Shown here: piece by piece, positions 54,804 through 56,374 of the stretch
Numbering within the stretch: the first letter of the stretch is position 1
Layout: each line of letters starts with the position of its first letter
Assembly (NCBI GenBank): GCA_001914955.1
Contig: MNDM01000086.1
Location: 1 to 56,374, forward strand
Direction of reading: 5' to 3'
Length of the DNA stretch: 56,374 bases
From: Nitrospirae bacterium 13_2_20CM_2_62_8
GTDB taxonomy: Bacteria; Nitrospirota; Nitrospiria; Nitrospirales; Nitrospiraceae
The notes under the pieces: generated by a model
The model's input: only the letters and a program-made list of their open reading frames with translations
Database searches by the model: none
Told to the model about the DNA's origin: nothing
Made by a program: the position numbers and the translations under genes

Positions 54804-55316
54804 TTATTCACTGCTGTCCGGGGCCATCAGCGGCGATTGGATGAACCACATCTCATAGAGTGGGAGCGCCATCATGATGAGGAAGCTCACGACCATCAGG
54901 GTGTCGCCCCCCAGCATGGTCAGGACAAAGACCGGCGAGACATATCTGATGAGCCAGGGTGAGGCCAGATCCAGGATCACGCCGCTAAACGCCATCCACG
55001 TCATCCCGATTTTTAGTCTATTGCTCGCCCCGGTCAGATAGAGGACGTGCACGAGGATCATAAAGACGACCGGCATGGTAAACAGGTGAAAGTGGGTGAT
55101 TTCTGCCAGCTCTCGGAATGACATGGGTTCGCCGAAGGTCGCGTCAGACCCACGATAGTGAGCGGCGATTCCGCCGGGCGAGAGGCCGGTCATGCTGTGG
55201 GCCCAGAAAAAAGAAAACCCAAAGCCGATGAACATGAGCGTGAGAAACAGAGTGTAGACGAGCCGGATATGACGATCGGTGTCCCGCAGGCGGAACCGCG
55301 TATTAAAATTTCGCAT
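54804..55316 (-). CDS. Four-helix membrane protein with conserved histidines
   Basis: A 170-residue integral membrane protein. Predicted helices are ~19-40, ~76-97, ~104-123 and ~128-152. His75 and His77 (ITHFHLFTM) lie at the start of helix 2 and His90 (MILVHVLYL) inside it, a pattern that could hold haem. I do not recognise the family. It is the last gene of a group with an exported FMN-binding protein 17 bases upstream, which supports a redox role. A haem role is inference only. Confidence 0.75.
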   Translation of the reverse strand: MRNFNTRFRLRDTDRHIRLVYTLFLTLMFIGFGFSFFWAHSMTGLSPGGIAAHYRGSDATFGEPMSFRELAEITHFHLFTMPVVFMILVHVLYLTGASNRLKIGMTWMAFSGVILDLASPWLIRYVSPVFVLTMLGGDTLMVVSFLIMMALPLYEMWFIQSPLMAPDSSE

Positions 55317-55333
55317 TCGGTCCCATCCGGCGC

Positions 55334-56011
55334 TCAGTCACCAAACAGCGATTCAAAGAATCCCTTCTCCGCCTTCCGCGCCGCCATCGTGTCGCTCCCG
55401 AGCCCGTTCGGTTTCAGATAGAATTCGTCAATCAGGACTAAGACGCGTTTCACTCCCGCGCTAATGGAGCGTACCGACATGGTCGCCCCGCTGATATTGA
55501 TGATGTCCTTGTTGATGCGGATGGGGTCCAGCACCGTCTTGCCCTCGTACTGCGAATTGAACCGCTTTCGCCCCACTTCGCTTCCCCGCGCTTCGCGGAA
55601 GACCAGCAATTCCACGTCGGTGCAGTAGCCCATCGGATCCGCACCAACCACGTAGGTCATGTGTTTGTGCTTGCCGATCGTGTTGTGGACCATCGCGTAG
55701 CCGTCCACTTTGTCGGCGGTTTCTCCGATATAGACTTCGAAGGAATCTTCGGGGAATTTCCATCCAATCCGCTGCTCCACCATCTCCTTTTTCTCCTGAC
55801 TCAGCCGTAGCATCTCCTTCCGGATCCGCTGCGACTTCGGCAGCATGATCTTGACCGCCTCCTCCTCGGTCATAAACACCTCGGCGTGAGTCAACTCTTC
55901 TTCAGTGAGATAGCGCTTCAGCTCACTGTCCCATACCCTTTCCGCCCAGGCAGGGATGGCCAAGAAGCTGCAGGCAAGAACCGGCGCAACGAAGCGATGG
56001 AAGAAGCTCAT
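55334..56011 (-). CDS. Exported FMN-binding domain protein
   Basis: A 225-residue protein with a signal peptide (core VLACSFLAIP, cut near AWA-ER, residue 23). The C-terminal half resembles FMN-binding domains of the RnfG/NqrC kind; SGATMS at 174-179 matches the site where FMN is attached to Thr (here Thr177) by ApbE. The Asp that usually sits three residues before the Ser is Ile here, with an Asp two further upstream, so flavinylation is likely but not certain. The ATG at 56011 overlaps the stop of the upstream gene by four bases. It would act outside the cytoplasm as an electron carrier. Confidence 0.8.
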   Translation of the reverse strand: MSFFHRFVAPVLACSFLAIPAWAERVWDSELKRYLTEEELTHAEVFMTEEEAVKIMLPKSQRIRKEMLRLSQEKKEMVEQRIGWKFPEDSFEVYIGETADKVDGYAMVHNTIGKHKHMTYVVGADPMGYCTDVELLVFREARGSEVGRKRFNSQYEGKTVLDPIRINKDIINISGATMSVRSISAGVKRVLVLIDEFYLKPNGLGSDTMAARKAEKGFFESLFGD

Positions 56012-56374
56012 GTCGGAGAGCATCCCCGTTCTTTCAGCTTGGCATTCAGTTTGTTCATCACGGCGGCCATGGCCTCTTCCGATGGCTCGACCGGCCACCA
56101 CTTTGTAGCTTGTTGGGTCACCCCGCCACGCAGATGCCAGCGCTGTCTGTTTTCAACCAGGCTGACTTTCGTCACGTCATCTGCCCGCTTGACGACGAAG
56201 GACATTCTGGCTCGCTCTTTACTGTCAAAGAGCTCACGATCGAATGCGCCGAACCCGCGTCTGCCAACCTCCATTTCAGTCCAGTCCGTTTCGATCAGAC
56301 CAACTTCCTTATCCTTCCGAGTCAAAGGCCGGTCTTTCAGTGTCTCCAGCGCTGCGTCCCAAACGGTGTCGTAG
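56008..56374 (-). CDS. BamC-like protein, 5' end beyond the window
   Basis: A partial gene: 121 residues are seen and the frame stays open to the window edge, starting YDTVWDAALETLKDR. The pattern VWDAALETLKD...VGLIETDW and the following beta-rich, charged segment resemble BamC-type or similar outer-membrane lipoproteins. The N-terminus with any lipobox is missing. It is coupled by an ATGA overlap to the FMN-binding gene, so it is the first visible member of that group. Confidence 0.65.
   Translation of the reverse strand, partial: YDTVWDAALETLKDRPLTRKDKEVGLIETDWTEMEVGRRGFGAFDRELFDSKERARMSFVVKRADDVTKVSLVENRQRWHLRGGVTQQATKWWPVEPSEEAMAAVMNKLNAKLKERGCSPT

Follow-up and report, generated by a model that had tools for sequence, protein, structure and literature searches.

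Genomic context of the gene trio

The window analysed here, a 56,374-nucleotide stretch of a contig from an incomplete Nitrospirota MAG (72.9% complete), ends in a group of three minus-strand genes that encode, in order of transcription, a BamC-like lipoprotein, an FMN_bind protein and a four-helix membrane protein (Table 1). The trio exists as the initial annotation had described it, with an exported FMN_bind protein that carries an SGAT motif, and the tight packing noted there is equally real: the BamC-like stop and the FMN start overlap by 4 nt (ATGA), and 17 bp separate the FMN stop from the start of the membrane-protein gene. The BamC-like and FMN genes are likely to be translationally coupled at the ATGA overlap. 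The contig runs past the window end (56374) to position 57432, and this extension, to which the initial annotation had pointed, holds the remainder of the BamC-like gene and, upstream of it, the C-terminal 297 aa of a porin that is 78% identical to the porin of a related locus (L003). Because the window stops before them, the porin, an apbE gene, a conserved operator and an island of iron genes were invisible in that first reading; together these elements likely provide the module's purpose.

Table 1. Features of the trio, in window coordinates
Feature	Position	Strand	Basis or remark
Four-helix membrane protein, 170 aa, candidate haem-b quinol:flavoprotein electron carrier	54804..55316	(-)	No family over cut-off
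His90 codon, helix 2	55047..55049	(-)	Invariant in 15/15 wide and 81/81 near sequences
His75-Phe76-His77 codons, helix 2	55086..55094	(-)	H75 and H77 invariant; HxH kept in the haem-c-fused clade
Exported FMN_bind protein, 225 aa from the ATG at 56011, Sec-type signal peptide	55334..56011	(-)	Pfam
SGAT flavinylation motif	55481..55492	(-)	Thr, predicted to bear FMN, is residue 178 of P0001 (numbering begins one residue ahead of the Met)
ATG of the FMN gene, within the ATGA overlap with the BamC-like stop	56009..56011	(-)	ORF reading
BamC-like lipoprotein, C-terminal 121 codons and stop	56008..56374, on to contig position 56469	(-)	GTG start, lipobox-like CSAC

A membrane protein with conserved histidines and no family match

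The membrane protein (P0002) has four hydrophobic segments, and its AF2 model contains four long helices (mean pLDDT 76.9). The initial annotation had counted three histidines; conservation was borne out, while the count was not. The protein holds six, of which five (H40, H53, H75, H77 and H90) are identical in all 81 close sequences, the window's included, and three (H75, H77 and H90) are invariant in a 15-member alignment reaching down to 23% identity. The full set of residues that never vary among these 15 FMN-associated sequences is M1, Y54, G56, E72, H75, H77, H90, F110 and W121. This pattern of histidine conservation suggests that the protein may bind haem b.

Searches assigned the protein to no described family. 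Pfam gave no family for P0002 and scattered single weak matches among the 15 members (best E 0.012), and NCBIfam returned a weak holin_phiLC3 match alone (E 0.025; 14.9 bits against a cut-off of 39.7). A PDB sequence search with 22 near sequences found no match, and one with the 15 wider sequences found two weak ones, the better (E 0.0059) covering 31 residues of a cytochrome c555 construct. Foldseek comparison of the model with PDB and BFVD gave no match at E 0.001. VIA-align reached Z scores of up to 9.2, which we treat as unspecific since the matched entries are helix bundles of unrelated proteins. The plasmid collection held no relative. A PepSY- or MsrQ-like cytochrome was rejected, as PF03929/PF16357 and PF01794 are absent in the 15 members scanned. 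We likewise rejected DUF4405 (PF14358), with no Pfam match and an hhalign probability of 0.7% (E 0.083) against a thin, three-sequence DUF4405 profile. The likeness to the DUF4405/FezC proteins described in Huang 2024 (PMC10979944) is that of small, helical, putatively haem-binding membrane proteins associated with flavinylation and with iron, but those have six helices and four central histidines (FezC by description), whereas the protein studied here has four helices and three far-conserved histidines, all on one helix; a dimer could mimic the six-helix site.

The FMN_bind protein and its ApbE

The FMN_bind protein (P0001) matches Pfam PF04205 with 23.6 bits against a cut-off of 22, and with 25.6 bits in the genome search. 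A [ST]GAT motif is present in 74 of 74 near sequences (window included) and in 12 of 12 further members; L007 has an extra TGAT upstream. In Nitrospirales the motif mostly reads NKDIINISGATMSVRS or close to it. An Asp usually stands three residues before the Ser/Thr of a flavinylation motif, and in most Nitrospirales this position is Ile. The SGAT threonine is the residue predicted to carry covalent FMN. An N-terminal hydrophobic segment with neither lipobox nor RR motif is found in all 70 of the FMN proteins that could be parsed (4 of 74 could not).

The nearest solved relative of P0001 is RnfG (9eri, E 7e-5), and its best NCBIfam match is the RnfG model TIGR01947. P0001 differs from RnfG/NqrC-type FMN_bind subunits in scoring far below that model (20.2 bits against a cut-off of 102), so we rejected an RnfG identity; inspection by eye of the neighbours listed found no Rnf or Nqr genes. 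The ApbE proteins of relatives score 257-270 bits and match FMN transferases in the PDB at E 8e-49. Nitrospirales encode ApbE separately, and 52 of 56 of these ApbE proteins show a lipobox-like stretch by a loose pattern.

The BamC-like lipoprotein

The full BamC-like ORF spans 153 aa, 8 of them inside a masked stretch. The partial ORF within the window gives a partial match to DUF3576 (26.2 bits, cut-off 25) and stays under the Lipoprotein_18 cut-off (18.7 against 25), as does the L136 protein (14.7). A lipobox pattern is met by 61 of 71 relatives' BamC-like proteins; the window's CSAC falls outside it. We modelled the L003 protein, which is 83% identical to the window's (pLDDT 80.8), and its 13 best Foldseek matches in the PDB are all BamC or chain C/D of BAM-type complexes. 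Its match to the BamC N-terminal domain has an E value of 5.7e-6, a probability of 1.00 and TM scores of 0.48/0.64. The protein thus shares the N-terminal BamC fold and a lipoprotein signal with BamC of the E. coli BAM complex, but differs from it in its length of about 150 aa, in having its best matches to the N-terminal domain and in scoring below the Lipoprotein_18 cut-off. The likeness to BamC proposed initially therefore stands at the level of fold.

Conservation of the module and its distant relatives

We scanned GTDB contigs with the membrane protein and kept the best 80 of 146 relatives (72-85% identical), nearly all titled Nitrospira, Nitrospiraceae, Nitrospirae or Nitrospirota. Conserved linkage had been set beforehand as a test of the module, and the trio is linked more often than chance would allow: the 80 near loci, many of them cut by contig ends, contain the FMN gene in 79 cases, the BamC-like gene in 72, the porin in 72 and apbE in 59. 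Among the 47 near loci with full flanks the corresponding counts are 47, 45, 45 and 45. The initial annotation had raised apbE as a gene to be sought in relatives, where these counts place it (same-genus L148 included); none was found in the window's own MAG (73% complete), whose contig stops before the expected place. At one near locus (L011:5681-6495) about 120 bp separate the operator from a remnant of the FMN gene that encodes just the final 51 residues, and an intact membrane gene comes next. Neither the BamC-like gene nor the bulk of the FMN gene was found there, through either deletion or an assembly error.

A profile of the membrane protein found a match at E 0.01 in 103 of 295 sampled Nitrospirota genomes, three of these matches being weak (0.003-0.007) and some belonging to a haem-c clade only; the other 192 genomes gave none. 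Among the genomes listed without a match are 14 of the window's own family, all at least 93% complete.

We took 26 stretches around weak and strong matches from distant relatives. In the case of 11 weak matches (L112-L121 and L123), an FMN domain adjoins the membrane protein, and a porin is present in 9 of these 11 loci and a BamC-like gene in none. The BamC-like protein, counted by the initial annotation as one of the trio, therefore looks like an addition in Nitrospirales that lies outside the core of the module. By Pfam names, the same 11 loci contain Fur in 9, FbpB and FbpC in 4, FTR1 with a cupredoxin in 2 and ferritin in 1; the L123 stretch shows no Fur, and L118 is cut by a contig end.

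The haem-c clade comprises proteins of about 250 aa that keep the HxH pair and lack H90. In nine of the 11 members examined (L122, L124 and L126-L132, e.g. L130:5817-6548) the four-helix core has an insertion after helix 1, before helix 2, that bears a CxxCH haem-c motif; the two without it are L125, a fragment, and L133. Six genomes (G060, G117, G119, G254, G260 and G288) encode both the FMN type and the haem-c type. Inspection by eye of six loci from this clade and its kin revealed no neighbour common to all. Next after the haem-c-type gene in L128 and L130 come genes for a small cytochrome c and for a long protein containing a CSDCH motif, and in L133 (5474-6705) the membrane relative is overlapped by an FMN_bind-like ORF that lacks [ST]GA[ST].

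A conserved operator and an iron island

Upstream of the porin lies a conserved operator, GATATTAATAATCGTTCTCAATTTCA in consensus, with CTTGACA 16 bp ahead of it; the columns of the operator block are 90-100% identical. It occurs within three mismatches in 63 of the 80 near loci, which are related, so that the 63 sites are not independent; it is absent in 17, several of them truncated (L061 and L065 are not). Searched through eight genomes at up to three mismatches, the operator gave one site each, except for three in G284, and a reversed control gave a single site in total. At up to one mismatch it is present in 10 of 31 relatives and absent in 21, among them the window's own MAG, whose contig stops inside the porin. 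The CTTGACA block 16 bp upstream indicates that part of the conservation is probably that of a promoter. A copy also stands immediately ahead of a Fur gene in G284 and G305, which argues for regulation. The L159 stretch contains the motif a second time, about 2.9 kb downstream from where the membrane gene begins.

We scored these regions against a Fur-box consensus, calling a best site significant when no more than 5 of 100 shuffles reached its score. Significant sites were found by this consensus in 47 of 65 near loci and in 5 of 13 further loci, leaving 8 further loci with none. The best match to this consensus is in L123 (18/19), followed by L115 and L120 (16/19) and L121 (15/19). The operator resembles a Fur box, and Fur may bind there.

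Fur genes are absent from the 80 near loci with 6-kb flanks and appear with wider flanks only. In its fullest form the island reads fur–fbpA–fbpB–fbpC–exbB–exbD–tonB–apbE (opposite strand)–operator–porin–bamC-like–FMN–membrane gene, with bacterioferritin genes beyond. Across 20 genomes with wide flanks (L151-L170), scored for the markers named in this sentence, apbE, the porin, the BamC-like, FMN and membrane genes are found in 20/20, Fur in 17, the operator in 15, FbpB and FbpC in 14 (none shown in the other 6), ExbB and ExbD in 13, bacterioferritin in 10 and TonB in 9. None of the iron markers sought lies within the stretches examined of L123, L161 and L165. The window's own contig stops before the island, and the one Fur of its MAG is on another contig.

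For FbpA from N. defluvii (L151), 25 of the 28 best PDB matches are named for iron binding or iron transport (best E 3e-49), and the protein retains the Tyr-Tyr pair; FbpA in L157 was recognised by eye. Both bacterioferritins scanned exceed their NCBIfam equivalog cut-off. FbpC and Fur fall below theirs, and for FbpC an aminoethylphosphonate model outscores the ferric model, so the transported metal is assigned from FbpA. In N. defluvii the interval from the membrane gene to the bacterioferritins is occupied by genes for an AraC-type regulator and an HD_5-domain protein (L151:3150-4511), the HD gene having relatives in 56 other loci. In the same genome, a 123-aa protein with a lipobox-like start and no Pfam family adjoins apbE (L151:9453-9824) and is found in 21 other loci.

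Fused ApbE–FMN_bind proteins with a twin-arginine signal between the halves

Other families of the class encode ApbE and FMN_bind as a single protein, in 16 of 269 genomes (L196-L211) and in addition in L118, cut by a contig end. All 16 fusions (e.g. L198:1501-3024) have a twin arginine followed by a hydrophobic stretch between their two halves, for instance SRRRFLALASLLLAGLFLP, and all 16 loci also hold the membrane protein. Judged by hydropathy only, 15 of the 16 show no clear N-terminal signal; the N-terminus of L210 is incomplete. TatC is encoded in 13 of the 16 genomes and in 11 of the 11 more complete ones. The union of ApbE and FMN domain in one protein with an internal twin-arginine signal suggests that flavinylation could take place in the cytosol and be followed by Tat export. 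A link of Tat export with an ApbE-type flavin transferase is shared with NosX, the Tat-exported ApbE of Paracoccus as described in PMC7660919. In that account ApbE itself is exported, whereas in the fusions the ApbE half has no signal and the Tat-like signal separates it from the half that carries the flavin.

Discussion

The module belongs to a kind already known, ApbE-flavinylated extracytosolic electron transfer, and apparently adds a new, previously undescribed membrane partner of flavinylated proteins. As presented in Meheust 2021 (PMC8238504), such systems likewise combine ApbE, an exported FMN_bind protein and a His-conserved membrane protein in one cluster, and their classes are NapH-, MsrQ-, PepSY-, DsbD- and NQR/RNF-like. 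Two likenesses to that account concern iron: its PepSY-like class is linked to Fur, TonB and iron uptake, as in the Nitrospirota module, and its P19-associated clusters contain FTR1, as do some of the distant Nitrospirota loci. The differences from its classes are that the four-helix protein has no Pfam match to any of them and that the porin and BamC-like partners are distinct. The terms 'Nitrospira', 'Nitrospirae' and 'porin' are absent from its main text, and among the matches listed in a search of titles and abstract beginnings in the open-access literature there was no paper on a flavin-based iron reductase of Nitrospira or on this system. The filter described there required predicted signal peptides or lipidation sites and could drop fusions with an internal Tat signal.

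We consider it reasonably probable that these genes form a Fur-regulated, flavin-based extracytosolic electron-transfer module for iron assimilation. The data establish gene linkage, domain identities, the conservation of motif and histidines, and the conserved operator; covalent FMN, haem, quinol as donor, iron as acceptor, dimerisation and Fur binding are proposals. A 13-residue histidine spacing is of the kind that two stacked haems need, as in cytochrome b and NOX-type proteins. Helix 2 has this spacing between H77 and H90, so that a homodimer could complete two bis-His haem sites. Such a homodimer of the membrane protein might hold two stacked b-haems on helix 2, in the manner proposed for FezC, whose haem sites are suggested to form by homodimerisation (Huang 2024, PMC10979944). 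The membrane protein would draw electrons from the quinol pool and hand them to the periplasmic FMN_bind protein, a soluble carrier, in the quinol-to-flavin direction that the initial annotation had envisaged. ApbE, whose gene is a neighbour of the module in relatives, would attach the FMN to the threonine of SGAT, and the BamC-fold lipoprotein probably assists the assembly or tethering of the porin or of the flavoprotein at the outer membrane. The reduced flavin would in turn reduce ferric iron or a ferric chelate entering via the operon's porin or a TonB-dependent route, and the iron so freed would pass to the importer encoded in that island, FbpABC or FTR1, and to storage in bacterioferritin.

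Several results weigh against this reading: the membrane protein shows no kinship to known flavinylation cytochromes in the searches above, FbpC and Fur score below their cut-offs, 6 of the 20 wide-flank genomes show no FbpB or FbpC, and Fur is missing from the near loci with 6-kb flanks. To these come the loci and relatives in which the operator or a significant Fur-box site was not found, the 192 sampled genomes with no match to the membrane-protein profile, the FMN_bind-like ORF of L133 that lacks the motif, and the Ile in place of the usual Asp. FbpABC and FTR1 are both classed as ferric transporters, so a reduction before uptake is not obviously needed, which likewise speaks against it. 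The same fact lends itself to electron flow in the opposite direction, in which the flavoprotein oxidises ferrous iron and passes the electron to quinone, feeding the ferric-specific importers. Possible reversal of direction is noted in the available account of flavinylated systems (PMC8238504), but the flavins of FMN_bind proteins, generally of low potential, would be poor oxidants for ferrous iron, and we regard this arrangement as very unlikely. Iron need not be the acceptor at all: the proteins could form a periplasmic reductase for another acceptor that shares regulation with iron genes merely through its need for haem. The three loci without an iron marker fit such a role, and the iron chemistry of the module is itself read from gene context; yet linkage to iron genes recurs in two separate arrangements (FTR1 with cupredoxin, and FbpBC) across families, and we judge this explanation quite improbable.

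The haem-c clade invites another explanation, to which we give a small chance: under iron limitation, Fur would derepress a flavin carrier that replaces haem-c periplasmic electron transfer and so spares iron, iron not being the substrate. The shared four-helix core with CxxCH in most members, the genomes that hold both types and the pattern of flavin/cytochrome exchange described in PMC8238504 are all compatible with such a swap. Against it, the module sits beside transporters, ExbBD/TonB and bacterioferritin, a setting of uptake rather than respiration, and the haem-c loci and their kin lack a common neighbour. For the iron-assimilation reading, a fuller version is possible but doubtful: the membrane protein would be a homodimeric four-helix haem-b quinol:flavoprotein reductase of Nitrospirota, a further kind of carrier, yielding periplasmic ferrous iron under Fur control, while the ApbE–FMN fusions of sister families would be flavinylated in the cytosol, folded and exported by Tat, the flavinylation site thus having moved across the membrane in the evolution of one system.

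If the fusions act as suggested, they would show flavinylation in the cytosol and subsequent export of the folded protein occurring in nature, an arrangement that filters for N-terminal signals can hide. Should the assignment of the membrane protein be correct, an unnamed family would gain a function, and the list of membrane carriers linked to flavinylation would lengthen. Nitrospira are major nitrite oxidisers, and for this group the module would, if the reading is true, supply a concrete step of iron reduction.
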